Source of the DNA: a virus
DNA length: 55,408 bases
Virus record (IMG/VR): IMGVR_UViG_3300036398_002939
Location: 1 to 55,408 of that record
Strand: one strand, 5' to 3'
Shown piece by piece: positions 4,619 through 51,500 of this stretch. Each line of letters starts with the position of its first letter. Within the stretch, counting starts at the first letter, position 1. A program made the translations under genes and the position numbers. Under the pieces are notes generated by a model. It saw only the letters and a program-made list of their open reading frames with translations. It was not told where the DNA came from and did no database searches.

Positions 4619-4728
4619 AGTTAGGTGGCGTAATTGGTTAAACGCATGGACAGTAGGGTGAGATAGAATCAACCCCAGCTTATGAAAGAGGCTCCCAAAC
4701 TTTGCAGGTTCAAGTCCTGCCCTAACTA
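4619..4728 (+). tRNA. tRNA-like gene with about 30 extra bases; possible Phe (GAA)
   Basis: Acceptor AGTTAGG (4619-4625) pairs with CCTAACT (4721-4727); D stem GCG/CGC (4628-4630/4643-4645) has a GG-containing loop; the T arm GCAGG-TTCAAGT-CCTGC (4704-4720) is perfect. An anticodon-like arm AGCTT-ATGAAAG-AGGCT (4677-4693) would give anticodon GAA (Phe). However 31 bases separate the D and anticodon arms, including a possible hairpin GGGTGA/TCAACCC, and the total is 110 nt. It may be a tRNA with an insertion, a tRNA with a tiny intron, or a non-decoding tRNA mimic. CCA is not encoded. Confidence 0.5.
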
Positions 4729-4750
4729 CAAAATAAAAGTTAAAAAATAT

Positions 4751-5521
4751 ATGATAGTAAAATATACTGATTTGATTCATAGTGTAAAGGGATTAGGTGT
4801 ACCGAAACCATTATCTGGAACTCTATCTGGCCATGCAGCCGGAGAACCCTTTGATAAAAGAGTCTATACGGAAATAAAAAATAAATTTCCTAAAAATACA
4901 TTCAGACAGTATGAATATTTAAATAAGTTATACATTGAAAATCAAAATGTAATATCGTATAAAGATAGAAAAGAATTATTTGAATCTTCAGTTATCCACT
5001 TTTTACTTACAAGAGGAAAGGATGCAACAAAAAAATGGAGAACAGATAATCTTTTTGAAGAAAAACAAAACGATACCGCAGATATATTAGTTGTAAAAGA
5101 TGGTTTATATGAGATAATAGATATTAAAACTCGTAATATTTCTAAGAAAGCACAACCACCAAATATAATTTCTGCATTCAAATTGGCACAAATGTGTTCT
5201 ATAATGATTGATGATAAAAAATTTAATGAGTTTACCATCAATTATTTTCAAGTTGATTGGAAGTTGGTCAAAGATGAATTAGTATGTACTGATGCATACA
5301 ATGCTTGTCTATTCAAGACAAACCCCAAAAATCTATACATAAATTGGGCAGCTGCTATGCAAATACAATTTCATGTATCTGAATTGGACCAATCTTTTCC
5401 AGGAACTATGGAAGATTGGGCACACACCTATCTTGAACATTTTGTCAGTCATGTGTACAAAAGATCTGAATACATGGTAAATAAATTTGCAAAACCCTTT
5501 GAAAATAAAGGACTTACATAA
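4751..5521 (+). CDS. HincII-like type II restriction endonuclease
   Basis: 256 aa (HincII is 258). Long blocks match HincII as I remember it: SGTLSGHAAGEPF (residues 22-34), QYEYLN (53-58), NLFEEKQNDTADIL (100-113), IDIKTRNISK (123-132), NIISAFKLAQ (138-147) and LYINWAAAMQIQFHV (195-209). The PD-(D/E)xK catalytic residues are Asp111, Asp124 and Lys126, and Gln135 sits where HincII Gln138 intercalates into DNA, so the enzyme should be active, cutting GTYRAC. The start at 4751 gives the HincII-like N-terminus; an upstream ATG at 4682 lies inside the tRNA-like element. No methyltransferase gene adjoins it. It may destroy host or competitor DNA. Confidence 0.9.
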   Translation: MIVKYTDLIHSVKGLGVPKPLSGTLSGHAAGEPFDKRVYTEIKNKFPKNTFRQYEYLNKLYIENQNVISYKDRKELFESSVIHFLLTRGKDATKKWRTDNLFEEKQNDTADILVVKDGLYEIIDIKTRNISKKAQPPNIISAFKLAQMCSIMIDDKKFNEFTINYFQVDWKLVKDELVCTDAYNACLFKTNPKNLYINWAAAMQIQFHVSELDQSFPGTMEDWAHTYLEHFVSHVYKRSEYMVNKFAKPFENKGLT

Positions 5522-5535
5522 ATCGATAAGTCCTT
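5508..5535 (+). repeat. AAGGACTTA inverted repeat, related to repeats at 12.7 kb
   Basis: AAGGACTTA (5508-5516) and its inverse TAAGTCCTT (5527-5535) can form a 9-bp hairpin spanning the end of the endonuclease gene. The 18-mer TTGAAAATAAAGGACTTA (5499-5516) recurs exactly at 12686-12703, and AAGGACTTA again at 12730-12738. In both places AGTCTAAATA and a host-type promoter follow about 60-100 bases downstream. This could be a terminator hairpin or an operator repeat. Confidence 0.4.
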
Positions 5536-5610
5536 ACAAATCAAAGACTTACATAACCCTCCTTATTTAGATTCAGTCTAAATATAAATTTCATTCCCAT
5601 AAAATAATGC

Positions 5611-5641
5611 TTTGATCTTTCATGCCAACGCCTTATATTTG
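5611..5641 (+). promoter_or_regulatory. Host-type promoter A
   Basis: TTTG (5611-5614), 19-base spacer, TATATTTG (5634-5641): a perfect match to the Bacteroidota sigma consensus. It is preceded by AAAATAATGC, shared by all members of this promoter family. It drives the 5665 gene. Confidence 0.8.
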
Positions 5642-5664
5642 TATTGTAAGTTAAGGTGAATGAT

Positions 5665-5880
5665 ATGAAACAATGTATAAAATTCTTTCCATTAGCAATA
5701 ACAGTAGGCGTATTGGTTCTTCTTGGTTTGGGTTACCAGAAACACGAATTGCCTAACTTGTTGAACCTCAACGACTTAAACAAAAAACTCCGTGTCCTCC
5801 AAACTACTTCTCGTAAGTCATTGGTAGATAATGAGTTAGCAGAACAGTTGGTAGAACAAAAAAATTATTCGTCAAAGTAA
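5665..5880 (+). CDS. Small membrane-anchored protein, 71 aa
   Basis: ATG 5665 lies eight bases after TAAGG; a GTG at 5656 is an alternative. One N-terminal membrane segment (about residues 6-23, PLAITVGVLVLLGLGY) is followed by a charged, Leu-rich probable coiled coil (NDLNKKLRVLQTTSRK, ELAEQLVEQ). It sits between host-type promoters A and B, so early expression is likely. Family unknown. Confidence 0.6.
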   Translation: MKQCIKFFPLAITVGVLVLLGLGYQKHELPNLLNLNDLNKKLRVLQTTSRKSLVDNELAEQLVEQKNYSSK

Positions 5881-5888
5881 AATAATGC

Positions 5889-5919
5889 TTTGATCTTAAT
5901 GCGCAATTCCGTATATTTG
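5889..5919 (+). promoter_or_regulatory. Host-type promoter B
   Basis: TTTG (5889-5892), 19 bases, TATATTTG (5912-5919). The region from AAAATAATGC through the spacer to the -7 box is identical to promoter F at 12.79 kb apart from the last bases of the -7 box. The stretch 5920-5983 between B and C holds only short frames that I do not call. Confidence 0.75.
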
Positions 5920-5983
5920 TATTGTAAGTTAAGGTGGTGGTAATTGAGACCAAAAACAATTCCACAAAAATAAAAAATAATGC

Positions 5984-16316: not shown

Positions 16317-16408
16317 GAACTAATATGAAAGTAACAAAAATTACCGGAGACGGTAAAGTATCACAACAATACATAAATGATTCAGTAACAATTTACAAAG
16401 GAGGTAAT

Positions 16409-16702
16409 ATGGGAATCTCGCCCCTATATGACAGAGTTTTGATTAAACCATCAAAGCCAGAAGAAGTTAGTTCCGGAGGTATTATTATTCCAGATACCGC
16501 TAGAGAAGGTTCAATTCGAGGAGAAGTTATTGCAGTTGGTGAAGGTAGAGTAAATCAAGATGGAACAATCTCACCATTGAGAGTTAAAGTTGGTGACAAT
16601 GTAATTTATTCAAAAAACAAATTCGATGCATCAAATATAATGATTGATGGTGAAGAATTTGTTGTTATGAGAGAAATAGAAATAATTGGTATTGTACAAT
16701 AA
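16409..16702 (+). CDS. groES: GroES-like co-chaperonin
   Basis: 97 aa from ATG 16409, the normal GroES length, behind a strong AAAGGAGG. Motifs: LYDRVLIKPSKPEEVSSGG, the mobile-loop region IIIPDTAREGSIRG, EVIAVGEGR, and VKVGDNVIYSKN. An in-frame ATG at 16325 (with AGGAAC upstream) would add 28 residues not found in GroES, so two start sites may exist. Works as the lid of the GroEL encoded just downstream (21-base gap) and probably folds phage virion proteins. Confidence 0.9.
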   Translation: MGISPLYDRVLIKPSKPEEVSSGGIIIPDTAREGSIRGEVIAVGEGRVNQDGTISPLRVKVGDNVIYSKNKFDASNIMIDGEEFVVMREIEIIGIVQ

Positions 16703-18364
<1,662 letters not shown>

Positions 18365-34888: not shown

Positions 34889-35713
34889 TTAACAAAAAGT
34901 ATTTAAACAATAGTTGTGAAAGTCCACAACAGTTTTCATAGACTTTTCATAAATATCATTTATATGATTCTTAACCAAATGTTTAGTTTCAATAGACCAT
35001 TTTTCATTTTCAAAACCATATGATATTCCATATTTTACAAATTCATTATCATAATATTGTTTAGGTGAAATATCTAAATCCGGTATAACTATACTTGTAC
35101 ACCCACACATAGCAGCTATAATAGAATAATATGTATGTACATCGTAGGAAATGAATCGTTCATATTTATTAAACGTATTCAATAAAAATTGATCAGTAAA
35201 TTCACCATGTAAAAACTCATCAATATAAAATCCTTCTATCCTATCAACCGGTTTGTGATTTCCTTTTTTTATCAAAAAACAATCACCATGCCTTTCATCC
35301 TTTTTATCATAAAAAAAATTTGTTTTTGTATCAAATATATTTAGTATGATATTATTGGCATATTTAGTACCGATGCCATATTCTTTATGATACAAAAAAA
35401 CGTGTTCTGTTTCGGAATACTCTTTTGTCCCACCATGTATTCCTGGATAATACAAAACCCATCTTACAACATTCTTTGCATTCAATATATTATGTAAAAC
35501 AACTTCTGGATATATTACAACACAATCTTTTTCAGAAGCAAGACGATATGAGTCATTGTGAGATATAACATTTGCCTTTGATTCATCAAATGTTTTATCA
35601 CAAACAACATATGTTTCTGAATTTAAACTCGATAGTACGTCAGCCAACTTGTGTAAAACTACTACACCACCCATGTTTTTATTGTAATCTAAACCATAAA
35701 CTAAATATTTCAT
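34889..35713 (-). CDS. Putative glycosyltransferase, 274 aa
   Basis: ATG 35713 with GAGA upstream. N-terminal MKYLVYGLDYNKNMGGVVVLHKLADVL is a GT-B-type opening (GG loop then helix). CVVIYPEVV, VVRWVLYYPGIHGG and FISYDVHTYYSIIAAMCGC-TSIVIPD fit WavQ-like LPS glycosyltransferases. Last gene of the glycosylation island in transcription order. Confidence 0.65.
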   Translation of the reverse strand: MKYLVYGLDYNKNMGGVVVLHKLADVLSSLNSETYVVCDKTFDESKANVISHNDSYRLASEKDCVVIYPEVVLHNILNAKNVVRWVLYYPGIHGGTKEYSETEHVFLYHKEYGIGTKYANNIILNIFDTKTNFFYDKKDERHGDCFLIKKGNHKPVDRIEGFYIDEFLHGEFTDQFLLNTFNKYERFISYDVHTYYSIIAAMCGCTSIVIPDLDISPKQYYDNEFVKYGISYGFENEKWSIETKHLVKNHINDIYEKSMKTVVDFHNYCLNTFC

Positions 35714-35722
35714 ATATTAATC

Positions 35723-37033
35723 TCATTTGAAAATACAAATTGGATCTTTAATCAAATAATTCCAATTCGGATTCATGTGTTTCAAATTATTTATTCTATT
35801 GTTCTTTTCATTTATTTGAAACCGAATACCTTCATATTCGTATAACCCAATGCTTGCATCGTGTATCATTTCTTGAATATTAAAAAATACTTTTGAATAT
35901 GAATCAAATGACTTAACTAAATTAGAATGTTTACAATATATCATTATATCATCTTTTATATCCGTTCCATCTGAAAATAGTATCTTATTTTTAAAATCCG
36001 TTGGATTAAACTTATGAGAAACACTATCCCAATAATCTTTTGAATAGTTCCACCTTAAATTACTATAATAGTTAGAATTAAATTCTAATGTATGTATCAG
36101 ATAATCAACAACAGATTTATCATTAAAATACAATCTTGATACATATGGCTCTATTGATAACACAAAATTTAAATCTACGAAAGAATCCATTTCTATAAAA
36201 CATCCAATTTCATATACGAAATCTATTTTATGACCGAACCTTCCCCATTTTCTAATGAACCGAAATACTTCTTGAATATCTGCATTTTTTTGTAATTCGT
36301 TTTTGTATTTAGAATCATCATCATTTTTATACCAATCTTTTCCTCTGGAAGAAACACAAGTAAAATGATAAACTATTGTTTTCCAAGATTGTATTAATTT
36401 TATATCATTTAATTTACATCTAACTACAAAATCTGAATCTTCTCTTGAACATCTAAACTGTGTATCGAATCCACTTACAACATCAAACCAAGTTTTTTTG
36501 AACAATGCAAATGGTGCAAAATATACATCATTCATAATAGTTCTATCTTCATTTTGAATATCTTTCACTATTCTATTGAATTTATCAAAATTAAATTCTT
36601 CTGGAGTTATACCAATATTCTCAACTATCTTTTCCGGAGAAGGTGGATGTAGCGGTGGTTCAATTCTTGTAAATGATAAAACAGTATTAACATCGGATAA
36701 ATCATTTCCAATGTGAACATCTAAATCCTTTCCAACTACCATATCGGATTGTAAATAACAAACTATATCATTTTTTGCTGCATCAAACATTACAGAAACA
36801 TTTCTTTGACTTCCAAATGGATAGCCAGTTTCATTACGATATATTTTCATATTTGGAAATGTCTGTTTCTTTTCTATTAAAGTATCGTATGTATTTTGAT
36901 TATCTGAATCTACAAAAATTAAAATCTCATGGTTTTCTATTTGAGTATTATTCTTTAAAGATTCTAACAATAAAATCGTATAATCTTTTTCATTATTTGC
37001 AGTCGGTATACAAAATGTTATCGGTTTAATCAT
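35723..37033 (-). CDS. Glycosyltransferase family 2, 436 aa
   Basis: ATG 37033 overlaps the previous stop (ATGA). ITFCIPTANNEKDYTILLLE, FVDSDNQ (about 41-47), GSQRNVSVMFDAAKNDIV and LQSDMVVG form the GT2 donor site; SGFDTQFRCSREDSDFVVRC is the ED motif. A further about 150-residue C-terminal domain (VYEIGCFIEMDSFVDLNFVL) is unassigned. Cytoplasmic, nucleotide-sugar dependent. Confidence 0.75.
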   Translation of the reverse strand: MIKPITFCIPTANNEKDYTILLLESLKNNTQIENHEILIFVDSDNQNTYDTLIEKKQTFPNMKIYRNETGYPFGSQRNVSVMFDAAKNDIVCYLQSDMVVGKDLDVHIGNDLSDVNTVLSFTRIEPPLHPPSPEKIVENIGITPEEFNFDKFNRIVKDIQNEDRTIMNDVYFAPFALFKKTWFDVVSGFDTQFRCSREDSDFVVRCKLNDIKLIQSWKTIVYHFTCVSSRGKDWYKNDDDSKYKNELQKNADIQEVFRFIRKWGRFGHKIDFVYEIGCFIEMDSFVDLNFVLSIEPYVSRLYFNDKSVVDYLIHTLEFNSNYYSNLRWNYSKDYWDSVSHKFNPTDFKNKILFSDGTDIKDDIMIYCKHSNLVKSFDSYSKVFFNIQEMIHDASIGLYEYEGIRFQINEKNNRINNLKHMNPNWNYLIKDPICIFK

Positions 37034-37878
37034 ATGGTTTCCTTTATCCTATTGTAAATTATTTTTATAGACTCCTGCAATCCTATAAATTTTATACCCA
37101 AATCAAAATAATTACCAACATAATCACCATTGGTTGAATTTATTTTGTTTATAGATTCATCTTCCATTGATACTATCTCAACTCGGTCATCATCTACATC
37201 ATTTATCATTTCTAATATTTCTTTCAATCTAAACGACTTTTCATAAACACAATCTATTGTTTTTGGAAAACGTGTGTAATCTATCAAAAATTCATCTATC
37301 ATTTTTGCTAAATCATCTATGTAAAAGAAATCCATCAGTCTATTTGAAAACAATGTCATTGGTAATCCATTTATTTTTTTTTCTATATTACCACGAATCA
37401 ATCTGTCTGAATTTTCATCAGTACCAAAACAATTAAATATTCTGAAATTATACATCTTATCTTCTATTAAACACAACTTACTTATTACACTTTTTGACAT
37501 ACCATAGTAATCTATTGGGTATCTATCTTTTGAATCGATGTTTATATCAAATCTTCTATCTAATTCTGCACCAGAACCAAATGTTATTATTTTATCAAAA
37601 CAATGTTTATTTGATAAAAGATTATATGTCATCAGAATGTTTTTGTAAAACATTTCTTCCGTATCTGGTTTAGTTCTTCTCCCACCCTCAACTGCAGTAT
37701 GTATTACTAAATCATATTGCTTATCTGAAAAGAATTTTTTTGTAGATTCGTAATCTGTTAAATCTAATTCATTTCTTGAAACCGTATCTATTTTATATTT
37801 TTCGGATAAAAGTTTTGATAAATTTCTACCAATAAAACCATTTGCACCAGTAATTAATATTTTATTTAGAACTTTCAT
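37030..37878 (-). CDS. NAD(P)-dependent sugar epimerase/reductase (SDR)
   Basis: 282 aa, ATG 37878 overlapping the previous stop. Rossmann motif GANGFIG (11-17), active-site Ser102 in FGSGAE, and Tyr125/Lys129 in YYGMSK. It resembles extended SDRs that act on nucleotide sugars, such as GDP-fucose synthase or YerF-type reductases. In the island with a 4,6-dehydratase, a 3-dehydrase and a ThDP enzyme, a final keto-reduction role is plausible. Confidence 0.75.
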   Translation of the reverse strand: MKVLNKILITGANGFIGRNLSKLLSEKYKIDTVSRNELDLTDYESTKKFFSDKQYDLVIHTAVEGGRRTKPDTEEMFYKNILMTYNLLSNKHCFDKIITFGSGAELDRRFDINIDSKDRYPIDYYGMSKSVISKLCLIEDKMYNFRIFNCFGTDENSDRLIRGNIEKKINGLPMTLFSNRLMDFFYIDDLAKMIDEFLIDYTRFPKTIDCVYEKSFRLKEILEMINDVDDDRVEIVSMEDESINKINSTNGDYVGNYFDLGIKFIGLQESIKIIYNRIKETI

Positions 37879-38402
37879 AGTTTTCTGGCAAAAATAACTT
37901 TACATTCACCATTAGTATGTGTCAAATCTATTTTGTCATATATTTCGTACCCACATGTAGTTAATTTATCAATAGCCATTTTGTATAATTCATCTCCGTG
38001 GGTTTCTATGTAGTATTGTTCTATCTTTGAAAATATTTCATCGGGAACAGAAAGTAGATGTAACTCACCACCTTCTATATCAGATTTGATAATATCTATA
38101 TCATTTTCTTCTATTAATTTTATCATAGTATCAACATTTGATATTAATGTATTTTGAATAGAAAACATATCTAAGTAATCATTCATATTACTTTTCATAG
38201 TTTCCACGTCTTGATTTGATCCATCTACGCCAATTACATAAATTGCACCAAGACCTAAAAAGTATTCCAAAGTTGATGGGTATGTTAAACCACCAATCCT
38301 ACCGAAATCACCACACCCTAAATCCAAAACTCTTTTACCTTTTACAAAAACAGATTCCCAATGTAAATGGGGTTCTTCGCTATTCACTAATCTAAATTCC
38401 AT
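37875..38402 (-). CDS. SAM-dependent methyltransferase (FkbM-like)
   Basis: 175 aa from ATG 38402 (GGAA upstream). SAM motif VLDLGCGDFGR (25-35), then IGVDGSNQDVETM and IIKSDIEGGELHLL, the latter typical of FkbM O-methyltransferases. Probably methylates a sugar product of the island. Overlaps the epimerase start by four bases. Confidence 0.7.
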   Translation of the reverse strand: MEFRLVNSEEPHLHWESVFVKGKRVLDLGCGDFGRIGGLTYPSTLEYFLGLGAIYVIGVDGSNQDVETMKSNMNDYLDMFSIQNTLISNVDTMIKLIEENDIDIIKSDIEGGELHLLSVPDEIFSKIEQYYIETHGDELYKMAIDKLTTCGYEIYDKIDLTHTNGECKVIFARKL

Positions 38403-38403
38403 T

Positions 38404-40164
38404 TTAATTCCTCTCAAAAATGTTTATATTCATGTCTGTCAATTCGCCTGGTATTATTTTTCCACTTGCATCTATCCCTTTGGCAACAACTTTTGGTTCG
38501 TGTTGTTCATTAGGATCGGAAAATACTTCTACTATTATTGGAAACAATTTCGTTTCACTGAAAACTCGATTTAATACTGTATCTATTTCTTTATTATTTT
38601 TTATTGAAAAATATTTAAACCCAAAAACATTTGAAAGCAAATCAAATCTTGGTATAGATACACCGGATGATATTTCTGATGCAACAAGATTTCCTTTGAA
38701 AAAAGAATTTTGTGTTAATTTTATTGACAAATAACCATCGTTGTTTATTATGAAAAGAATCATTGGTATATTATTATGACGCACAGTTTCTAGTTCTTGT
38801 AGATTCATCATAATACTGCCGTCACCTTCAATACATATCACTGGTTTATTACATCCATAATGTGCACCAATAGCCGCTGGTAATCCATAGCCCATGGGTG
38901 CCGTACCCTCATTACTAAAAAGTCTCTGATTTGATTTCAGGTTTATAGTTTTTAATGGAACAACATGAGCTGTTCCATCGCTTGTCACAATCACAGAATC
39001 ATCCGATAAATAACTTTCTAATCGTTTTGAAAAAACATAGGTACTAACATAATCTGTCAATAAATTATGTTTTTCTAAAACAAGTTTTTCTTTTGACCTA
39101 ATATCGAGAACATAATTTCTCCATTCGTCTATATTTTGTTTTTCTAAATTTCCATGCACGATTTGAAAAAAATCTTTCAAGTCAATTTCCCATTCAACCT
39201 TTGATTCAAATTTTAATTTTTTCATTTCGTTTGAATCAATATCTACTAAAAATTTTACAGCATTCGGAGCAAATTTACTTTGATCATAACCTATCATTTT
39301 TGGATTCAATCGTGAACCTATTGATATTACTAAATCACTATTTTGGATTATCCTATTCGATGTATATTGCCCCAATAAACCGAAACGACCTGCATAGTAT
39401 TTGTAATCCGTATTTACAACATCAACCGATGAATGTGGACCTGTCATAACAGGTATTTCCAAATCAAAAACAAATTGATTAAACTGTTTCGTAGTTAATG
39501 ATGATCTAACCCCACCACCAACAACTATAACAGGTTTTTTACTTTTATTAAGTAGTTCTTTTAGAGTTTGCAACTTTTCAATATGATTTGTAATCGAATA
39601 TGAAAAATCATTTCTCACTTGAAATCCATCTAACTCTGATGGGTTTATATTTGATGCCTGTATATCAAGTGGTATATCTATCCAAACAGGTCCTGGTCTA
39701 CCATTGGTTGCAAGATGATATGCCTTTTCTAATTCATACCGTATTTTATTTTTATCTGTGACTATGACAGAATACTTTGTCATATTTTTTACAGTATCTA
39801 CTATGTTAAATTCTTGTTGTCCGATTTGTCTACAACCGGTTCCATTTGATAACTGTTCAGTTGGAACTTGACCAGATAAAATAATCATTGGGATAGAATC
39901 TTGATATGCACATAAAACTCCAGTCAATGCATTTGTTCCACCGGGACCGGTTGTAACTAATATACAACCAGGTTTATCCGATGTTCTAGCATATCCTTCT
40001 GCAGCCATTGCACATGCCTGTTCGTGGTGATTGCATACATATTTTATCAATTCGTTTCTACCAAGAGAATCAACAAGGTGCATGCATCCGCCACCAGAAA
40101 CAGTAAAAACTGTATCTATATCTTTTGATGCAATAAAATTAAAAACATAGTCTGATAGTTTCAT
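38404..40164 (-). CDS. Thiamine-diphosphate enzyme, acetolactate-synthase-like (YerE-type candidate)
   Basis: 586 aa, ATG 40164. ThDP-enzyme hallmarks: catalytic Glu48 in NHHEQACAMAAEGYAR, GPGGTNALTGV (73-83), FAD/nucleotide-domain ARFGLLGQ-like GRFGLLGQY (259-267), and the ThDP-binding GDGS(447-450)...NN(474-475). The family decarboxylates pyruvate and transfers the two-carbon unit. In sugar gene clusters the homologue YerE attaches it to a 4-keto-3,6-dideoxy sugar (yersiniose). The adjoining dehydratase and 3-dehydrase genes support that reading over amino-acid synthesis. Confidence 0.75.
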   Translation of the reverse strand: MKLSDYVFNFIASKDIDTVFTVSGGGCMHLVDSLGRNELIKYVCNHHEQACAMAAEGYARTSDKPGCILVTTGPGGTNALTGVLCAYQDSIPMIILSGQVPTEQLSNGTGCRQIGQQEFNIVDTVKNMTKYSVIVTDKNKIRYELEKAYHLATNGRPGPVWIDIPLDIQASNINPSELDGFQVRNDFSYSITNHIEKLQTLKELLNKSKKPVIVVGGGVRSSLTTKQFNQFVFDLEIPVMTGPHSSVDVVNTDYKYYAGRFGLLGQYTSNRIIQNSDLVISIGSRLNPKMIGYDQSKFAPNAVKFLVDIDSNEMKKLKFESKVEWEIDLKDFFQIVHGNLEKQNIDEWRNYVLDIRSKEKLVLEKHNLLTDYVSTYVFSKRLESYLSDDSVIVTSDGTAHVVPLKTINLKSNQRLFSNEGTAPMGYGLPAAIGAHYGCNKPVICIEGDGSIMMNLQELETVRHNNIPMILFIINNDGYLSIKLTQNSFFKGNLVASEISSGVSIPRFDLLSNVFGFKYFSIKNNKEIDTVLNRVFSETKLFPIIVEVFSDPNEQHEPKVVAKGIDASGKIIPGELTDMNINIFERN

Positions 40165-40168
40165 GTGT

Positions 40169-41248
40169 TTACTTTATATTATTTTTTAATAATGGTTCAT
40201 CTTTTTTCATATCACATATCAAAACGGAATCCTTTTCTATGAAATCCCTCGATGAGATATGTCCTATTTCTTTTTGATATGGTATAGCACCATACAAGTC
40301 TTTAATTTCAACAACTTCACCGGATTTCATATCTCTTTTCAAATACAATCCTCTATAAAGTGATTCTAAGTAAATTGATTCTTTTTCATCAATAACTCTA
40401 CGAACATTAGATGATGTTCCACACATAATAACAGATTTTTTGTATGCCTTAAACCACTCGTCTATTTGATGTGGTAGAGAGCAATAATTTGAAACTTCTT
40501 TTTGTTCATGTCCTTTTGGATATGGAATATCTATATGTCTTTCCCATGTCCTTGCTCCCTTTGCATATGATATTAACATGGAAGAATGCCAATCGTGATA
40601 TTCATGTGTAGATAAACCAACAACCAATTTAGGATATTTCTGTTTTAAATAATCTATTTGATTTAGTTCCAATTCATCATCTTCACTTGGATATTTTGAA
40701 ACACAATGGTTTATTGCCAATGGAATGTTCCTATTAACAAAAAAAGAAACAACATCATCTATTTGTTTATCGTTAGCACCACCAGTTGATATTATTACCG
40801 GTTTTTTTGTTGATGCAATTTTATTCAGAAGAACCCAATCATTTATATCTGAACTTGCTATTTTTATTATTGGTAAATCTAATTCAACACAAAAGTCCAC
40901 GGACTTTTCATCAAAAGGAGTTGCCATTGGAATACAATCGTGTTTTTTTATGTATTCAATTAGCTCTTTAAATTCATCATAAGTCAATTTTGTTTTTGAT
41001 GTTTTTTGTATGTATCTGGTTCTTTTTTTCAAATTAGTTAGTTCTTGACCAGATCCCTCATCTTTGAATTTTTTATGTATAAAATTATCAACATCTCTAA
41101 ATTGTAATTTTATAGAAGCCTTGACTTTATTTTCCTTTACAACCTTTGCAAATTCTCTTATGATTTTCTTTCCTCTTTCAATCGAACCCCAATGGTTATT
41201 GGCCAATTCCAAAACAAATAAGTTTTCAAATATATCACTTCCTTTCAT
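40169..41248 (-). CDS. NeuB-family sialic/legionaminic acid synthase-like protein
   Basis: 359 aa from ATG 41248 (AGAGG upstream); a longer frame to 41329 is not supported. NeuB barrel motifs: FVLELANNHWGS (11-22), ASIKLQFRD, MATPFDEKSVDF, IIKIASSDINDW, ISTGGAND and VVGLSTHEYHD, with a C-terminal SAF domain (SLYRGLYLKRDMKSGEVVEI). Condenses phosphoenolpyruvate with an aminosugar to a nine-carbon acid. No NeuA or NeuC is visible in the window, so the pathway would need host enzymes or genes elsewhere. Confidence 0.8.
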   Translation of the reverse strand: MKGSDIFENLFVLELANNHWGSIERGKKIIREFAKVVKENKVKASIKLQFRDVDNFIHKKFKDEGSGQELTNLKKRTRYIQKTSKTKLTYDEFKELIEYIKKHDCIPMATPFDEKSVDFCVELDLPIIKIASSDINDWVLLNKIASTKKPVIISTGGANDKQIDDVVSFFVNRNIPLAINHCVSKYPSEDDELELNQIDYLKQKYPKLVVGLSTHEYHDWHSSMLISYAKGARTWERHIDIPYPKGHEQKEVSNYCSLPHQIDEWFKAYKKSVIMCGTSSNVRRVIDEKESIYLESLYRGLYLKRDMKSGEVVEIKDLYGAIPYQKEIGHISSRDFIEKDSVLICDMKKDEPLLKNNIK

Positions 41249-41273
41249 TAAAATACCTCTAATCAATGTAAAA

Positions 41274-42227
41274 TTACCATATAAATTTATTTCTATAAAA
41301 TTCCACAATATCTGCAATTTCTTCATCAAAATTCTTTACTGGCTTCCATCCTAGTGAACGCAACTTTGAATCATCTAATGCATATCTAACATCTTCACCC
41401 GGTCTACCTATTGAAAAATCTAAGTGTTCCATAATATCTTCACATTTATTATCATACAATTTAATGATTTTTTCAACAACTTCCAAATTATTTTTTTCTA
41501 AACCACCACAAATATTGTATATTTCGTTTTTTACATCAGATTCCATTATAGTTATCACGGCACTTGCGGTATCATTTGCATGCAACCAATTTCTCACCGG
41601 AGTTCCTTTACTATGTAACGGTATCTTTCTGCCAATACCGAGATACTTACAAGACTTTGGAATAAGTTTTTCTACATACTGACCTATTCCATAATTGTTT
41701 GTTGGTCTAACTATAACATATGAAATACCATAAGTTCTTGCCCACGCCTGTATTAACATATCTGCAGCAGCTTTTGTTGCAGAATACGGGTTGGATGGTT
41801 TTAATAAATCCGTCTCTGTGTGATCACCATCGGTTATGTCCCCATACACCTCGTCTGTGCTAAAATGTAATAAAATAGGTTTCTTATTATTTTCTTGTCT
41901 ATAATTTTTCAACAATTCTAATATTCTATGAACACCATTTATATTAGAATGAACAAAATCGTCACTCTTTACTATTGAGTTTCCAACATGAGTTTCAGCT
42001 GCCGTATTAATTATGTAGTCACAATCATATAAAAATTCCAAATCATTTATATCACATTGAGTAAATACAAAATTTTCGTATTTATTAAATTCATCCAATA
42101 AATCTCTATTAGCAGCATAAGTTACTTTATCAACCCCACGTACATACCACCCTTTCTTTAAACATTCTCTAGTAACATATGATCCAATAAAACCTAGACA
42201 TCCTGTTACATACACTATCTTTCGCAT
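41274..42227 (-). CDS. Nucleotide-sugar 4,6-dehydratase (RmlB-like)
   Basis: 317 aa from ATG 42227 (GGAG upstream). NAD motif GCLGFIG (9-15), catalytic STDEVYGD with Thr124, Asp125, Glu126, and Tyr148/Lys152 in YSATK; TNNYGIGQYVEKLIPKS and RNWLHANDTA also match dTDP-glucose 4,6-dehydratase. It makes a 4-keto-6-deoxy sugar, the entry to deoxysugar pathways. The nucleotide carrier (dTDP, CDP or other) cannot be told from sequence alone. Confidence 0.85.
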   Translation of the reverse strand: MRKIVYVTGCLGFIGSYVTRECLKKGWYVRGVDKVTYAANRDLLDEFNKYENFVFTQCDINDLEFLYDCDYIINTAAETHVGNSIVKSDDFVHSNINGVHRILELLKNYRQENNKKPILLHFSTDEVYGDITDGDHTETDLLKPSNPYSATKAAADMLIQAWARTYGISYVIVRPTNNYGIGQYVEKLIPKSCKYLGIGRKIPLHSKGTPVRNWLHANDTASAVITIMESDVKNEIYNICGGLEKNNLEVVEKIIKLYDNKCEDIMEHLDFSIGRPGEDVRYALDDSKLRSLGWKPVKNFDEEIADIVEFYRNKFIW

Positions 42228-42248
42228 ATATTCACTCCTTATCAAATG

Positions 42249-43826
42249 TTAATATGGGTTTGAACCATATAATTTATGTAAATTTTGTTTTTCTATTTGA
42301 GCTTTATCGAGTTGTGTTTTGCTTATGGTTTCTTCGTGATCAAGATAGATACAAAGAACTTCTGGTATCAATTTAAATCTTGAACCGTTTAAAGCAAATC
42401 TAATCCACATTTCCCAATCACCTATTGTATTAAATTGTTGATAGTTAAAATATCCAACCGCATCATGTAAAGATTTTCTCCACATAGGGTCTGGACCGGC
42501 ATAACATGCATTTAAAACATATTTTTCATATTCATCTGGATATTCTAACACATTTATTTTATTTAAATCTATGTTATCAAAATCCAATGATTCGTCTCTA
42601 GTTGGTGCATAATAACTGTATGTCATATCATATTCATTATTTTCCAACAAATCATATTTTATTTTTGTATTTATTGGATGACGTATATCATCTATATTCC
42701 AGTTTGTAATATATTTTGTTGTTGCGTTTTCTATTCCCAAATTCCAAGCGTTGTATACGCCAAGTTTTTCGTTTTCTTTAATAAACTTAAAATTTTCAAA
42801 TCCCTTCAATTCTTCAAATAAATCTGACCATTCGTTGTAAATTATGATATGTTCCGTTTCTTCAAATAGATGTTGCCTTTTCACATTATTTATGTATCTC
42901 GGTATAAATCGACCATATCTTTCCAAAGAACCTATTGCAGTTATTACAGAAACTTTAAATTTATTTATAGAATCTTCTGCATTATTTTTAATATTAAGTA
43001 TATCATATCCCCAATCCCCCAAATTTGGTATTGAATATTTTTCTGTCATTTCTTGTATAAAATCAATTCTGTAATTATTTTTTGTTGCAAGTTCTTCAAA
43101 AATCCAACTTGGTATTTTACACAAAGAGTTCGTATATTCTTCTTCCCAATTAAAATTGTTAATAGATTCATCATAAGCAGAATAACCAACTGTATTTGTG
43201 TTATGTTTGTTTTTTGTTAAATAATCAGTCACTTTCCAAAAATACTGTTTTATAGCAACAAATTTTTTATTCATCCATTGTAGATGTACAATATGTAAAT
43301 CCGAATCGTTAATCGTTAGATACTTTTCGGTTGGTGGTAAATGTGTTGAATGCATCTGTGTTTTTTTAAATTCATATCTTTTTGAATATGAACCAATTCT
43401 ATCTTTAAAATTATTCAGCCATGGACCATCCGTTCTAATTGTATTTACCGATGTGTATTGTCTCCATCTTAAATTAAAAACAGTGTCTTTATTATTTTCT
43501 AATAATGTTTCAAGTTCGTTCTTTTTTAGTTTACCATTCAAATATTCATCACCATCTAAACATATAATTTTATCCGAATACTTTAAACCGGCATCAAATA
43601 AAGTTTGACGCATATCTGTCTCAAATGTTAGATTCTCTACATCTCGTTTTATATGCATTATATCCAATATATTATATTCATCTTTGTATTCTTTCAGATA
43701 ATCGATAACAGAGTCATCACTCGTATCAACATAAAAAACAAATGCATCGGCGTATTCTTTCCATATTGGTAATAATTTTTTTAACAAAATCAAATCATTT
43801 CGTATCATTGAAATCTGAACTATCAT
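42249..43826 (-). CDS. Two-domain glycosyltransferase, 525 aa
   Basis: ATG 43826. N-domain (1-290): MIVQISMIRNDLILLKKLLP, IICLDGDEYLNG (DGDE metal site), HSTHLPPTEKY, as in GT2-like DUF4422/Glyco_tranf_2_4 proteins. C-domain (about 295-525): VSVITAIGSLERYGRFIPRY, LGVYNAWNLGIENATTKYIT, NIDDIRHP (DD site) and IGDWEMWIRFALNG, a second GT2. Probably adds two successive sugars. Confidence 0.75.
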   Translation of the reverse strand: MIVQISMIRNDLILLKKLLPIWKEYADAFVFYVDTSDDSVIDYLKEYKDEYNILDIMHIKRDVENLTFETDMRQTLFDAGLKYSDKIICLDGDEYLNGKLKKNELETLLENNKDTVFNLRWRQYTSVNTIRTDGPWLNNFKDRIGSYSKRYEFKKTQMHSTHLPPTEKYLTINDSDLHIVHLQWMNKKFVAIKQYFWKVTDYLTKNKHNTNTVGYSAYDESINNFNWEEEYTNSLCKIPSWIFEELATKNNYRIDFIQEMTEKYSIPNLGDWGYDILNIKNNAEDSINKFKVSVITAIGSLERYGRFIPRYINNVKRQHLFEETEHIIIYNEWSDLFEELKGFENFKFIKENEKLGVYNAWNLGIENATTKYITNWNIDDIRHPINTKIKYDLLENNEYDMTYSYYAPTRDESLDFDNIDLNKINVLEYPDEYEKYVLNACYAGPDPMWRKSLHDAVGYFNYQQFNTIGDWEMWIRFALNGSRFKLIPEVLCIYLDHEETISKTQLDKAQIEKQNLHKLYGSNPY

Positions 43827-43837
43827 TTTATCCCTTT

Positions 43838-44515
43838 TTAAATTTTATGATGAATCTTGTTTATATCAGAAAATAATTTTCTATTCTGATAAAGTAAATG
43901 GGGGTTTATTAAATAGACATTTTTTCCAGTATCTATTAAATGATTTATAGCATGGTCTCCCCAAAATTTCTTTTCTTTCAAAACATTAAACAAATCCAAA
44001 TAAACTTTTGAATTTATGGCAATACCATGACAACCTGCAACTAATGGGTTTATATCAGATGAATAATGTCTTCCTTCATTTATTATTTTTTTGAAAAAAA
44101 TTTCTTTTGAATTTTTTCTTGAATCATTGATTCCACCAAGTATAACAATATCCCAATCATCCGGTGGAACTAATAACGAAAAATCCAAATCTTCTTCCCA
44201 TTCGTAAAATATCGTATCATCGTCAAATGCCATGTGGCTTTCCGATTGTTTTGAAATCTCTTGCATTAAAATAAACTCTGATGTTAATTGGTTGCCATAA
44301 AATCCTGCAGAAGCAGGATATTTTATATGATGTCTTCCGTGCATAAAATTGTAATCAGTATCAACAAATTTTGTGCCATCTATTGCCTCTATTCTACTAT
44401 ATGATAATCCTATATTTTTAGCACTATCATCGAATGATTTCATTCTTTCATTTGAGTTATGCAAATTTTTAACATAAGCATTTCCAAATATTTTATTTAA
44501 TGCATTACCTATCAT
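43838..44515 (-). CDS. Glycosyltransferase family 25-like
   Basis: 225 aa, ATG 44515. YVKNLHNSNERMKSFDDSAK and YSRIEAIDG are the GT25 (LPS/procollagen galactosyltransferase) opening; AFDDDTIFYE is the metal site, and WDIVILGGIND, GCHGIAINSKVYLDLF complete it. Likely modifies a surface glycan. Confidence 0.75.
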   Translation of the reverse strand: MIGNALNKIFGNAYVKNLHNSNERMKSFDDSAKNIGLSYSRIEAIDGTKFVDTDYNFMHGRHHIKYPASAGFYGNQLTSEFILMQEISKQSESHMAFDDDTIFYEWEEDLDFSLLVPPDDWDIVILGGINDSRKNSKEIFFKKIINEGRHYSSDINPLVAGCHGIAINSKVYLDLFNVLKEKKFWGDHAINHLIDTGKNVYLINPHLLYQNRKLFSDINKIHHKI

Positions 44516-44524
44516 AATATATCC

Positions 44525-45517
44525 CTAAATTATTTTAAGCAAATCATCAAAATATTTTTTGAATGATGATAGACTAAAATGTTTTAAATAATTTTCTCTT
44601 GCAATTCTTGAACATTCATCATAAAATTCAGAATCATTCATTAGTTTATTTACCAAAACATTTGCAGAATGTATGTCAGATATATTCACAGACAATTCTG
44701 GAAAACAAATTCTTTGAGTATCTACATCTTTATTGCCTATACATGGTATTCCAAAATAAGCACAGTTCAGATAGAAAGTTCCAGCAGCAACAGTAGGCAT
44801 TAAATGAACCGCATATTTAAATTCAGATAATGATGTCATCCAATCTGTCCAACTTAATCTTGGAAGATGATTTAAATTATCTACAAGTTCCTCATTTTCT
44901 CTCATAGCATGAGAAGTCTGTGTCCATATAGGTAAATTAAAGTTAGAAGCAACTAAATAACTTTCAAACCCACCATACCATCTTGAAAAATTTCCACCAA
45001 CCATAACTTTATTTTCTCTTTTTGGTAAAGTATTTTTTATAGTTTCTTCTATTATCAATGATGGTATTATATTCACTTGTTTATTTTTAAAAAGACCTTT
45101 GTAATAATTAACATCAATTTCATTGTGAACAAATATCCCATCACATTCTGAAATCATATTGTAAAACATTATCTGATCTTCTATTTCATAATTCGTCCAC
45201 CACCAATGTGGACCCTCCTGCACATAAAATACTTTTGAATTATTATCTTTTAATTTTTTCAAAAAGTCTGAGTTGAGTATGTTACTAACAGGATTTACAT
45301 CCGATACCAATTTACTTCCCTCTGCACTTAAAAAGACTCTACCTTTTGGAAATATAATAAAAACAAAATCATAACCAACAATATTTTTGTAATTATAGAT
45401 ATTATCATGTTCTGCATTTAAGGCATTCATCCAAGCAAATTCCGTTCTCATATTTTTATGATGTGACGGAATTTTTCCAGTAAACCCCATTTCTGTTAAA
45501 AAAATAATTTTATGCAT
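44525..45517 (-). CDS. Glycosyltransferase-like protein, 330 aa
   Basis: ATG 45517. GT-B-type layout: KIIFLTEMGFTGKIPSHHKN, VFYVQEGPHWWWTNYE, CDGIFVHNEIDVNYYKGLF, and a C-terminal donor domain with YAVHLMPTVAAGTFYLNCAYFG-IPCIGN and ARENYLKHFSLSSFKKYFDDL. The usual EGFG motif is replaced by the TVAAGTFYLN region. Substrate unknown. Confidence 0.65.
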   Translation of the reverse strand: MHKIIFLTEMGFTGKIPSHHKNMRTEFAWMNALNAEHDNIYNYKNIVGYDFVFIIFPKGRVFLSAEGSKLVSDVNPVSNILNSDFLKKLKDNNSKVFYVQEGPHWWWTNYEIEDQIMFYNMISECDGIFVHNEIDVNYYKGLFKNKQVNIIPSLIIEETIKNTLPKRENKVMVGGNFSRWYGGFESYLVASNFNLPIWTQTSHAMRENEELVDNLNHLPRLSWTDWMTSLSEFKYAVHLMPTVAAGTFYLNCAYFGIPCIGNKDVDTQRICFPELSVNISDIHSANVLVNKLMNDSEFYDECSRIARENYLKHFSLSSFKKYFDDLLKII

Positions 45518-45524
45518 AACAATT

Positions 45525-46685
45525 TTATTTAGATATATTATTTAAATATTCTTTTATCTTATCACAGACATAATCTACATCGTCTGTTGTCATTCCATGA
45601 TGTGCACCCAAAAGAAATCCATCTTTCATTATGGTATCTGCATTAGAAAATGTTTCTAAATATTCTCTATAAACAGGATGACGAGTGATATTACCTGCAA
45701 ATGTAACACGAGTTTGAATATCGTTATCTTCCAAATAAGTTAGTAGACCCAATCTATCTTCATATTGAAGTGGGATTGCGAGCCAATTAGGTTTGATACT
45801 ATCGTCTGGAAGACTTATCTCTGAAATATCTTTTAGATTTTCAATATACCTTTCGATATTTTTTCTTCTTATATCAACAAACCTATCTAACTTTTCCATT
45901 TGAACCAAACCAAATGCTGCATTCATTTCAGATGATTTGAAATTGTAACCAAGAACACCATATAAAAATTTGAAATCATATGGTATTCCATCAACTTGAT
46001 GATTGAATCTTTGATCAACTTCCTCAGTATTATTTCCAATTCTGCCCCAATCTCTAAATTGCAAACAAACATCACGGAGTTTTTCATCATTAAACATCAC
46101 CATTCCACCGGAACCACCTGCAGTGATTACATGGGAGGCATAAAATGATGTAGTTGAAATATCAGTTTCTTCCGTATATGTCATTGTATCTGCAGAATCT
46201 TCAATCAATATAATATCGGTTCTACCAATAGAAATTATATGATCACGAATTGCCTTCCAATCTGGTTTATTGCCAATCAAATTTGGAATCATAATAACTC
46301 GTGTATCATCTGTTATTTTTTCCACAATCTGATTAACGGTTGGTACATATGTTGTAAGACCAACATCACAGAAAATTGGCTTTAATCCCAACTGAACCAT
46401 AGGTGCAACAGTGGTTGAAAAAGTACAGGCGGGTGTGATAATATGACTACCCTTTGGTAAATGTAAAGATGCAAGAGCAAGCAAACACGCAGAAGAACCA
46501 GAATTTACAAATACTCCATATTTTTTTCCAAAATACTTTGATACTATATTTTCAAATTCAATTGATCTAGGACCGAATCCAGCTATCCAACCATCACGCA
46601 AACATTGTTCAACTGCTTTAATTTCTTCTTCTCCGTATGATTCAAACTTATTTGGAGCATACCAAACTTTTTTTCTTAAATTCAT
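45525..46685 (-). CDS. DegT/ColD-type PLP enzyme: sugar 3-dehydrase (His in place of Lys)
   Basis: 386 aa, ATG 46685. DegT/DnrJ/EryC1 fold: GWIAGFGPRSIEFE, NSGSSACLLALASL (61-74), TPACTFSTTVAPMVQLG, and PLP-binding Asp163 in EDSADTM. At the position of the Schiff-base Lys the sequence is SFYASHVITAGGSGG, with His185. His here is the mark of ColD and RfbH/DdhC 3-dehydrases, which remove the C3 hydroxyl of a 4-keto-6-deoxy sugar instead of transferring an amino group. Works after the 4,6-dehydratase at 42227. Confidence 0.75.
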   Translation of the reverse strand: MNLRKKVWYAPNKFESYGEEEIKAVEQCLRDGWIAGFGPRSIEFENIVSKYFGKKYGVFVNSGSSACLLALASLHLPKGSHIITPACTFSTTVAPMVQLGLKPIFCDVGLTTYVPTVNQIVEKITDDTRVIMIPNLIGNKPDWKAIRDHIISIGRTDIILIEDSADTMTYTEETDISTTSFYASHVITAGGSGGMVMFNDEKLRDVCLQFRDWGRIGNNTEEVDQRFNHQVDGIPYDFKFLYGVLGYNFKSSEMNAAFGLVQMEKLDRFVDIRRKNIERYIENLKDISEISLPDDSIKPNWLAIPLQYEDRLGLLTYLEDNDIQTRVTFAGNITRHPVYREYLETFSNADTIMKDGFLLGAHHGMTTDDVDYVCDKIKEYLNNISK

Positions 46686-46695
46686 GTTTCACCTA

Positions 46696-47319
46696 TTAAA
46701 TATTTCTATAAAATTGATTTTGTTTTTCTTGTTTATCTATTGATTTTATATGATAAAAACAATATGCTTCTTCTTCTGGTAGAGAACTGTAAACCTCATA
46801 ACCCGATAATCTCTCGTGTACTTTATTTACCCAATTTATATTCTTTGAGTTTTTGTATATTCTTGTCTGATAATCTGGCCAATTAATTCGGCCTTCTTCA
46901 TCAAAGTTCCATCCCCATTTTTTTATGTGTTCATCAGTTATATCATCAACAACATTCCATCTTGGCACCAGAAACATATCTACTTGTGAATTTTCTTCTA
47001 GTAAAGAATGTATGTTTTCAATTAAGAATGTTGAAGGAACTTCGTCGGCATCAATATTCACTATCCATTCATTTGAACAATAATTTCTTATATTATTTTT
47101 AAAAGAAGAAAAATCATTTTTCAATGGAAATTTTATGTAAACAAAATTGTTAAACTTATCAATGAAATCTTCTATAACACTTTCAACATCTTCGGTAACT
47201 TTATCTGCATCAGATTGTACAACCACTTCGTCTACATCTTTAATGTATTTTAAAAGGAATGTTAATAGTAATTGTAGTTCATGTGCCTCATTGTAAACGG
47301 TGATAGTATAGCTTATCAT
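46696..47319 (-). CDS. Glycosyltransferase family 2, 207 aa
   Basis: ATG 47319. ISYTITVYNEAHELQLLLTF, WIVNIDADEVPS (DAD metal motif), and RINWPDYQTRIYKNSKNINW with VHERLSGYE, as in WaaE-like glycosyltransferases of LPS core synthesis. Ends at QNQFYRNI. Confidence 0.75.
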   Translation of the reverse strand: MISYTITVYNEAHELQLLLTFLLKYIKDVDEVVVQSDADKVTEDVESVIEDFIDKFNNFVYIKFPLKNDFSSFKNNIRNYCSNEWIVNIDADEVPSTFLIENIHSLLEENSQVDMFLVPRWNVVDDITDEHIKKWGWNFDEEGRINWPDYQTRIYKNSKNINWVNKVHERLSGYEVYSSLPEEEAYCFYHIKSIDKQEKQNQFYRNI

Positions 47320-47323
47320 AAAT

Positions 47324-48613
47324 TCAATCCGATATTTTATTTAATTTTGGTAATTTTATTTCAGATTTTACTGCGAATTTTGGAACATTTGTATTCATAA
47401 TGCTTTCAAATCTGTCATGCATTTTATTGTAAGACCATTTTGTTTTCATAGAAATTAATGCCAATTTTGATTTTTTCAAAAATGTATTGTACTTTGAAAA
47501 CACATCTTTCATTTTTTCCGATGCTTTTGTGTAATCAACATTAAACCAAGATGATCCTTTATTGATTACTGTTTCCCAAATTGCACTATCGTGAACTTCT
47601 TTTAACTCACCTTCTAGCAAAACATTCACATCTGATTCGATGAAATCTAGATGTCCACTCCATTTTGGAACCATTATTGGTTTTCCGGTTGTCATAAATT
47701 CTGCAATAGGTCTACCATAACCTTCACCTTTGGTAAAAGATATAAATGATTTAATCTTATCGTGGTGATATAACGTATTCATATCCGTTTCATCTAAATC
47801 ACCATTCAACAAATATATGTTTGGTAGTTTTTCCAATTTTACCATGTTTTTAATTGAATCTATTTTTCTTAATATTTCATTTCTTCCTGTTATAGAAAAT
47901 GTTCCCATTGATGTTTTTAATAAAAGTGCAGGTGCATTTTCTTTCCCAGCAAAAGTTTTTAGAAACGTGTAGATTAATCCAGATACATCTTTTCTATCGT
48001 TTCCAAAATCACCCTTTAACCAATGTCCAACAAACAAAAATACAAAATCTTCTTTTATATCATTCAACATATTGGTTACATTCACGTTTTGTTGTGCATC
48101 TTTACCGAATAAATCTGTTCTAACACCTTCATGCAAAACTTCTATTGGTTTTGTTATTCTGTGATTGTCTATCATCTGATTCGTTTGTTTATCCCTCTTT
48201 TCATAAACGGTATTAACAAAAACATCTTTTGCATGTTTTGATGGAACAATTATTAAATCCATTCGGTTACAACCTTCTACCCATTCTGGAGAACAAATAT
48301 TAGTTTCTATACCGGCTGTTATACCTATATTATATTTTCCGACTGGCTGAAACTCTGTTGGTATTGTACATTGAACCCAAATATCAGGTTGGCTAGTCAT
48401 CTGTTCTTTTGCAATTCTATTTAATATTTCTTTATGATCACTATTGTTTTCATCTAAAGCATTCATTGGAGTTTCACCCCAATTTATAGATATAATTTTT
48501 ACATTATATTTATCCATTTTTATTAAAGACAAAACCAAATCTCTTGCATGTGATCCATAACCACTAACAGTTGCAACTGGTCCACAAAATACCAATTCTG
48601 GCTTATTTGACAT
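47324..48613 (-). CDS. Glycosyltransferase family 4-like, 429 aa
   Basis: ATG 48613 with GAGGA upstream. GT-B fold: VFCGPVATVSGYGSHARDLV, GITAGIETNICSPEWVEG, IVPSKHAKDVF, FVFLFVGHWLKGD, and the donor site SFTKGEGYGRPIAEFMTTGK-PIMVPKWSGHLDF (E-x7-E equivalent). Overlap or near-contact with both neighbours suggests co-translation. Confidence 0.78.
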   Translation of the reverse strand: MSNKPELVFCGPVATVSGYGSHARDLVLSLIKMDKYNVKIISINWGETPMNALDENNSDHKEILNRIAKEQMTSQPDIWVQCTIPTEFQPVGKYNIGITAGIETNICSPEWVEGCNRMDLIIVPSKHAKDVFVNTVYEKRDKQTNQMIDNHRITKPIEVLHEGVRTDLFGKDAQQNVNVTNMLNDIKEDFVFLFVGHWLKGDFGNDRKDVSGLIYTFLKTFAGKENAPALLLKTSMGTFSITGRNEILRKIDSIKNMVKLEKLPNIYLLNGDLDETDMNTLYHHDKIKSFISFTKGEGYGRPIAEFMTTGKPIMVPKWSGHLDFIESDVNVLLEGELKEVHDSAIWETVINKGSSWFNVDYTKASEKMKDVFSKYNTFLKKSKLALISMKTKWSYNKMHDRFESIMNTNVPKFAVKSEIKLPKLNKISD

Positions 48614-48621
48614 ATCTATCC

Positions 48622-50046
48622 TCACGCTAATATTAATTCAAATTTATTTTTAGGTTTAAATACATTTAGTGTATTATCAATACTATCAACAATTCTATTT
48701 GCCATTTCTTTTTTACTCATACCAACTTTACTATCCATGATATAATCTCTACCCATTTCACCCATTCTCTTTCTTTCACTCTTAGGAGTAGTATACCAAG
48801 AATATAATGCATTACCAACTTCTCTATAATCGGCTCTATCATCAAAAATATAAGGAGTTGGAACTGATCCTTGTAATGATATATTTGAAGGCCAAACGGG
48901 TTTAACCCATTCTCCGTGTTTCAAATCAGACCATTCGTATCTATCATGTAGAGTGTGAACTTCAACATAATCCTCGGCTGTAAAATAATCATTTGTTTTT
49001 GGATTAATGAAACCACATTGGTCTTGTAACCCACCGGTGACATTTACTATAATAGGAACGCCGGCTGCCATTGACTCTGCCGTTGCTAAACCAAATCCTT
49101 CATTTGATGACATATTCAAAACAACATCCGCACAATTATATCTAACATTTAAATGTTCGGTTCCAACTATACTATTTGCGAAAATAACAGGATACTTTGG
49201 GGATAAATCACGAATAACGGCAGACAAATCCGTTCCATTATGATCAATTTCTACCGTATGCATATAAAGTAAACAATCATTTACTGCGTCACCACCGTTT
49301 TTATCAACGAGTTCACAAAAATGTTTATATGCCAATATAACATCACCTGGATGTTTTCTGTGGATATTTCTGTTGTTCCACATTATTATGAAACGATTTG
49401 GATTATCGGATCTTAATTCATTATTTTGTTTTGTATAATCATCCCAATATTTGTCACCCTCTTTTATCGGATAAAACATATCGGTATTTATTCCATGTGG
49501 AACATATGTTATTCTATTATTATCTACACTCTCACCCACCCTTTCAAGTATTCTTTTATTTATACCGTATGTTTGTTTTGAAATTGCCATCAATGAATCA
49601 CAACTAGAATATGCCTCTTTATTCCACATTGGATCGGTAGGTGTTCCACCAACAAGTCCTGCACCATCCCATATGTTCAAATACAATAATGGCATTTTAG
49701 TTCTAATTTCATGTTCCATATTGTATAACCATCCCCAAAATCTTGGATCAGTAAAATGTAAAATGGCATCTGGCTTTTCAATTTCAATTAATCGTCTGAT
49801 TAAAAGAGAATCACCATATCCATTGTTGCAATATATTTTTACATATGAATCGTTAATACCACTTATTTTGTTACAATCATCCGATAAATCTAATACCTTT
49901 CCTGAATCAGGATGATTCATCGCTGCACCAACTTGAACCCAATCATATTTATGAACAGTTCCTAATACAATATCTCTCGATACAGTTGCTATTCCAGATG
50001 TAAGTCTCAAATCGTCTGACAGTAATAATATCTTTTTCTTTGCCAT
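48622..50046 (-). CDS. Glycosyltransferase family 4, 474 aa
   Basis: ATG 50046. KKKILLLSDDLRLTSGIATV opens a GT-B domain; HFTDPRFWGWLYNMEHEI, SLMAISKQTYGINKRIL, YVPHGINTDMFYPI and the donor motif NEGFGLATAESMAAGVPIIV define GT4. A homologous layout to 48613 suggests successive steps on the same glycan. Confidence 0.8.
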   Translation of the reverse strand: MAKKKILLLSDDLRLTSGIATVSRDIVLGTVHKYDWVQVGAAMNHPDSGKVLDLSDDCNKISGINDSYVKIYCNNGYGDSLLIRRLIEIEKPDAILHFTDPRFWGWLYNMEHEIRTKMPLLYLNIWDGAGLVGGTPTDPMWNKEAYSSCDSLMAISKQTYGINKRILERVGESVDNNRITYVPHGINTDMFYPIKEGDKYWDDYTKQNNELRSDNPNRFIIMWNNRNIHRKHPGDVILAYKHFCELVDKNGGDAVNDCLLYMHTVEIDHNGTDLSAVIRDLSPKYPVIFANSIVGTEHLNVRYNCADVVLNMSSNEGFGLATAESMAAGVPIIVNVTGGLQDQCGFINPKTNDYFTAEDYVEVHTLHDRYEWSDLKHGEWVKPVWPSNISLQGSVPTPYIFDDRADYREVGNALYSWYTTPKSERKRMGEMGRDYIMDSKVGMSKKEMANRIVDSIDNTLNVFKPKNKFELILA

Positions 50047-50055
50047 GTGAAACCT

Positions 50056-51441: not shown

Positions 51442-51500
51442 GAAACACCTAATCAAAACGTTTACTATAAATATCTAGTAATTTTAGAAAACGATAAATT

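Follow-up and report, generated by a model that had tools for sequence, protein, structure and literature searches.

A predicted HincII-family restriction endonuclease without an adjacent methylase in T4-like phage DNA lacking GTYRAC sites

We found an intact gene for a HincII-family type II restriction endonuclease, with no methylase beside it, in a stretch of apparent T4-like phage DNA (55,408 bases, hereafter the window) that contains no copy of its predicted target, GTYRAC. We consider it probable that a T4-like phage, likely of a Bacteroidota-type host, carries here a functional solitary GTYRAC endonuclease as cargo of an exchangeable slot, that the phage is safe through site loss that took place earlier in its lineage, most likely under host restriction, and that the enzyme is able to cut host, plasmid or rival DNA. 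A fuller reading is held more tentatively: a virulent phage may wield a captured bacterial type II enzyme against both host and rival DNA, protected by site absence and not by methylation, in a lineage that keeps a tRNA-side slot exchanging restriction-type cargo and in which a host-driven purge made the capture safe. Restriction enzymes are generally seen as defences against phages and as deadly to any carrier that lacks the methylase. Here, the cutter stands alone in a phage, together with a sequence-based reason for survival, the site being gone in this phage and retained in its sisters. The features discussed below are as follows.

4751 to 5521, plus strand: predicted type II restriction endonuclease of the HincII family, intact and 256 aa long, with catalytic residues D111, D124 and K126
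4731 to 5489: exchangeable cargo, bounded approximately by the conserved tRNA stretch on the left and the conserved flank on the right (blastn against L178, L187, L188, L219 and L221)
4619 to 4728, plus strand: tRNA gene forming the left border of the slot (Rfam RF00005, 41.9 bits), in a stretch 98% identical in L221
4085 to 4609, plus strand: ArdA-like antirestriction protein, a marginal match (PF07275, 27.8 bits, cut-off 27)
5490 to 5933: conserved right flank of the slot, 91–92% identical in L219 and L221
5611 to 5641: Bacteroidota-type promoter motif in the right flank
5665 to 5880: small conserved gene in the right flank
53518 to 54456, minus strand: T4-type clamp loader (phrog_168, 291 bits)
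54520 to 55392, minus strand: small N6/N4-type DNA methylase-like gene (PF01555, 27.0 bits)
1 to 55408: no GTYRAC site, where 18.9 to 32.7 would be expected

The endonuclease gene was assessed via family profiles, alignment and structure prediction. Its product matched Pfam family PF09226 with 401 bits (cut-off 23.7), residues 10–252 covering positions 3–245 of the 247 in the model, and PADLOC REase_II with 329 bits. HincII (1kc6) was recovered by phmmer over residues 5–252 (E = 3.3e-93) at an identity of about 58%. The reading frame is open, with no sign of decay. In an alignment with 78 homologues, the column of Asp111 held aspartate in 77, that of Asp124 aspartate in all 78 and that of Lys126 lysine in all 78, and each of these residues is kept in the phage protein. 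The Gln135 column was more permissive (glutamine in 67, methionine in 11). Gln135 and Asn138 correspond to HincII Q138 and N141, and the latter position was invariant in a 35-sequence alignment. Of the 65 columns with a conservation of at least 95%, 62 are retained, and none of the three departures is catalytic. The AlphaFold model was confident (pLDDT 93, pTM 0.88), and its best matches in the PDB were HincII structures, with a TM-score of 0.94 to 2gih_A. The length, the blocks of identity and the four residues Asp111, Asp124, Lys126 and Gln135, which an initial annotation had pointed out from the sequence alone, were thus all borne out, and the structural comparison that it had proposed returned the HincII fold. 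We conclude that the product is confirmed as a full-length HincII homologue, with a predicted specificity for GTYRAC.

The origin of the gene was less clearly marked. The sequences closest to it belong to Bacteroidota and nearby phyla, no donor was well supported in the gene tree, and no PHROGs family matched the protein. Compared with its nearest relative, the gene shows 81 synonymous codon changes over the 174 residues that the two share, in keeping with constraint at the protein level, although most of that branch may lie in bacteria.

We then compared the surroundings of the gene with those of its bacterial counterparts. A methylase of one family was present in the same locus as the HincII-type gene in 79 of 80 bacterial loci, usually just upstream of the nuclease gene and overlapping its start; the lone exception lay at a contig end. 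No methylase adjoins the phage gene, so the arrangement of a type II restriction-modification system, methylase adjacent to nuclease gene, is absent. The flanking genes are the ArdA-like gene, the tRNA gene and a small gene of 71–74 aa, as had been proposed for both upstream neighbours and for the lack of a methyltransferase on either side. When the HincII-type methylase of record L084 was used as a query, no M.HincII relative was detected in the window, nor in any of 24 related phage records, which reach lengths of up to 177 kb. The earlier claim that the enzyme has no companion methylase therefore stands as regards M.HincII relatives in these sequences, but it needs two qualifications: another N6/N4-type methylase-like gene lies at the right end of the window, and the window is a fragment, making up about one third of the full phage genome (the longest related record has 177 kb), so that the absence of a methylase applies to this fragment. 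The methylase-like gene is unlikely to be the partner, because full-length homologues (78–92% identical) are conserved in sister phages that retain GTYRAC sites; it is also not of the M.HincII type.

The fragmentary state of the window and the several N6/N4 methylase-like genes in related records leave some room for a restriction-modification system split across the genome, in which a GTYRAC methylase in the remainder would protect the phage. We consider this improbable, given that the 24 related records yielded no M.HincII relative and that a methylated genome has no need to lose its sites, yet the sites are gone.

The depletion of GTYRAC was evident both in the whole sequence and within coding constraints. 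The expected number of sites in the window was 18.9 at maximal order, 32.7 at order 2 and 42.6 at order 1, and none was observed. Of 105 Val-Asp and Val-Asn codon pairs that could spell GTYRAC, none did, compared with 12.8 expected from codon usage; such pairs formed two sites in other members of the clade (79.7 expected) and 74 in the sisters (105.4 expected). The suggestion that the phage spares its own DNA thus received a mechanism: self-sparing is apparently achieved through a missing recognition site, which is the new element of this case. Moderate avoidance alone is not peculiar to the phage, because bacterial HincII loci are also GTYRAC-poor (113 observed, 333 expected).

To place this depletion, related phages were found in IMG/VR and ranked by their clamp loader, with the clade defined by an identity of at least 93% and sisters by 87–89%. 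The observed and expected numbers of GTYRAC were 13 and 350.7 in 51 clade loci, 89 and 122.6 in 16 sister loci, and 64 and 80.7 in 13 more distant or partial loci. The larger records gave the same picture, both for the clade (G005, 3 vs. 69.0; G029, 2 vs. 45.1; G015, 3 vs. 68.4) and for the sisters (G039, 177 kb, 82 vs. 110.4; G038, 55 vs. 65.5; G033, 37 vs. 54.8). The non-palindromic forms GTCAAC/GTTGAC were observed 7 times in the clade (120 expected) and 114 times in the sisters (100 expected), the biggest contrast between clade and sisters among 1497 non-palindromic hexamer classes; for these asymmetric words, general avoidance of palindromes was ruled out as the cause of the loss. Of the GTNNAC words, only the YR forms were nearly absent in the clade. 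GTACAC/GTGTAC was lowered to 0.33, because GTAC itself is avoided.

It could be argued that the phage enzyme recognizes an altered sequence and that the missing GTYRAC sites have nothing to do with it. An identity of about 58% to HincII leaves room for such a change, and avoidance extends across the clade without the gene. We nevertheless consider this very unlikely: the columns of Q106, N138, N198 and Q204, which vary little or not at all within the family, are retained in the phage protein, and the avoided set of words is exactly the degenerate YR centre of HincII.

Importantly, the sequenced parts of G005, G029 and G015 lack a HincII-type gene, and these phages avoid GTYRAC too. Site loss as an adaptation to the phage's own endonuclease is thus unsupported, and the avoidance, being common to clade members without the gene, is no proof that the enzyme is active. 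A complete absence of sites is ordinary for this clade, as the clade rate predicts only about 1.2 sites in the window. The site-free genome probably preceded the nuclease, because gene-less members show the same avoidance, and restriction by HincII-type systems of hosts appears to be a likelier cause of the loss than the enzyme encoded here. Other sites were affected as well. The clade is nearly without TCATGA, AGTACT and GAATTC, while TTCGAA, GATATC, GGTACC and others are avoided by clade and sisters alike; such multi-site avoidance would fit pressure exerted by numerous host systems. A separate signal, far stronger than that for GTYRAC, concerned TATATA and TTATAA, which were absent from four clade records (the window and the L178–L193 range) where 396 and 315 copies, respectively, were expected; in the sisters, both occurred at about 0.9 of expectation.

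The position of the gene was examined by comparison with the same place in related records. The endonuclease gene is exchangeable cargo, since other records carry other genes there: a peptidase of the M15 family together with a protein whose match to GmrSD-N stayed below threshold in G005, a 295-aa protein with no family match in G029, and a protein of 181 or 229 aa in L219 and L221. In G015, the slot (L188, 858–3346) holds two N6/N4 methylase genes flanking a 227-aa ORF with a weak match to type II restriction endonucleases, an arrangement resembling a compact, phage-borne restriction-modification module. Restriction-related genes thus seem to recur in the slot, within a small sample of six genomes. 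A search for further slot neighbours with the ArdA-like protein as query gave no matches. The tRNA gene at the left border is 110 nt, longer than usual; it was matched by Rfam and missed by ARAGORN. No Bacteroidota-type promoter motif was found directly upstream of the endonuclease gene. Elsewhere, between 5600 and 12852, a repeat of about 74 nt that contains the Bacteroidota-type promoter motif TTTG-N19-TATATTTG occurs six times, upstream of small genes.

As the gene is seen at this slot in a single record, with no close relative found there, a bacterial gene might have been wrongly joined to phage sequence during assembly. We regard such a chimera as extremely unlikely: both flanks are sequence of the clade, the junctions fall at a slot that is variable in other records, and the gene came without the methylase found near nearly every bacterial copy. 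A captured gene that is unexpressed or inactive, tolerated as harmless to a phage without sites, is an unlikely explanation but deserves more weight. It agrees with the single record, the lack of a promoter motif directly upstream and the turnover of slot contents, and many of the solitary endonuclease genes known from bacteria are fragmentary or perhaps inactive (PMC3488263). It sits poorly with a full-length protein that keeps the active site and nearly all of the highly conserved columns; the synonymous changes also fit constraint, though perhaps constraint exerted mostly in bacteria.

We also looked for HincII-type genes in other phages. A tblastn search of 50,697 records of cultured phages gave no match. 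The only other carriers found in IMG/VR were L002 and L003, with the complete pair and prophage-like, and L084. The last belongs to a 169 kb phage record (G001) in which a terminase was found, and there (L084, 8371–10252) an intact HincII-type methylase lies beside an endonuclease remnant of about 56 residues. A neighbouring stretch of phage genes is repeated on both sides of this insertion. G001 has 41 asymmetric GTYRAC sites (50.8 expected), although GTTAAC is reduced (3 vs. 43.7). This phage seems to mirror the window: the shield, the methylase, was kept there, and the blade, the nuclease, here.

The identity of the phage was estimated from several markers. No terminase match was obtained in the window; terminase genes are present in larger related records. 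Bacteroidota-type promoter motifs occurred 13 times in the window (3.8 expected). The clamp loader, the terminases of relatives, the promoter motifs and the relatives of the endonuclease together point to a T4-like phage of a host in the Bacteroidota group, and its life style is probably lytic. Two further regions drew attention. Genes apparently encoding GroES and GroEL, judged by their translations, lie at 16325–18364, and 34889–51456 holds an unusually large number of successive genes for glycosyltransferases, aminotransferases and TPP enzymes; this run suggests synthesis of a surface sugar.

HincII-family enzymes cut unmethylated GTYRAC, and production of the enzyme in infection would therefore fragment an unmethylated host chromosome or a rival. 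The order of events that we propose begins with hosts whose HincII-type systems restricted the lineage until nearly every GTYRAC site was lost. This prior purge would have made a bare nuclease safe to acquire, and no methylase would be needed because the lineage had already lost nearly every site. The gene would then have been captured as cargo in the variable slot beside the tRNA gene, and the enzyme could be made during infection without harm to the site-free phage, cutting unmethylated GTYRAC in the host chromosome, in plasmids or in co-infecting phages. The intact gene with its predicted fold, the lack of a partner in the fragment, the site-free sequence, the contrast between clade and sisters and the variable slot are observed; specificity, activity, expression and target of the enzyme, and the cause of the avoidance, are what we infer. 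Use of the enzyme as a weapon, which the initial annotation had put forward, is plausible. Should the phage usually infect hosts with HincII-type methylation, the DNA of those hosts would be shielded from the enzyme, leaving rivals as its sole targets. Provided that the enzyme is active, site avoidance, seen as anti-restriction, and phage nucleases, seen as means of competition, would unite in one phage, and escaping a host enzyme would be what makes its theft safe.

Among known systems, the HincII/HindII system of Haemophilus influenzae (PF09226) shares the endonuclease family, fold, active site and predicted GTYRAC specificity with the gene described here, which differs in being phage-borne, with no methylase nearby and in a site-free genome. 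Type II enzymes of chloroviruses are likewise virus-encoded, with a presumed role in breaking down host DNA at an early stage of infection, but these belong to algal viruses with methylated DNA, and methylase genes are always adjacent (PMC7019647), unlike in the window. The homing endonuclease gp210 of phage PhiPA3 acts in competition with a co-infecting phage (PMC11620839); it is a phage nuclease for which such a role was shown, but it is an intronic HNH homing enzyme with one specific target and not a type II restriction enzyme. Avoidance of restriction sites in phages has been treated as escape from host enzymes (PMC6286503), and the phage described here, probably non-temperate and with nearly all copies of a type II site lost, agrees with this, except that it additionally encodes the enzyme. 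Our literature search, incomplete in coverage and thus weak evidence of absence, found no earlier case of a type II enzyme in a phage whose protection comes from lacking the site. The closest likeness is PacI of Pseudomonas alcaligenes, a solitary endonuclease whose genome is said to lack the recognition site (PMC3488263). Both are enzymes without a methylase in DNA without the site, in our case across all 55,408 bases of the window. PacI is bacterial and of an unrelated family, whereas the gene here is in a phage and the site loss is common to relatives without the gene. In the best reading of these data, this T4-like phage encodes a solitary restriction enzyme comparable to PacI, probably aimed at host or rival DNA.
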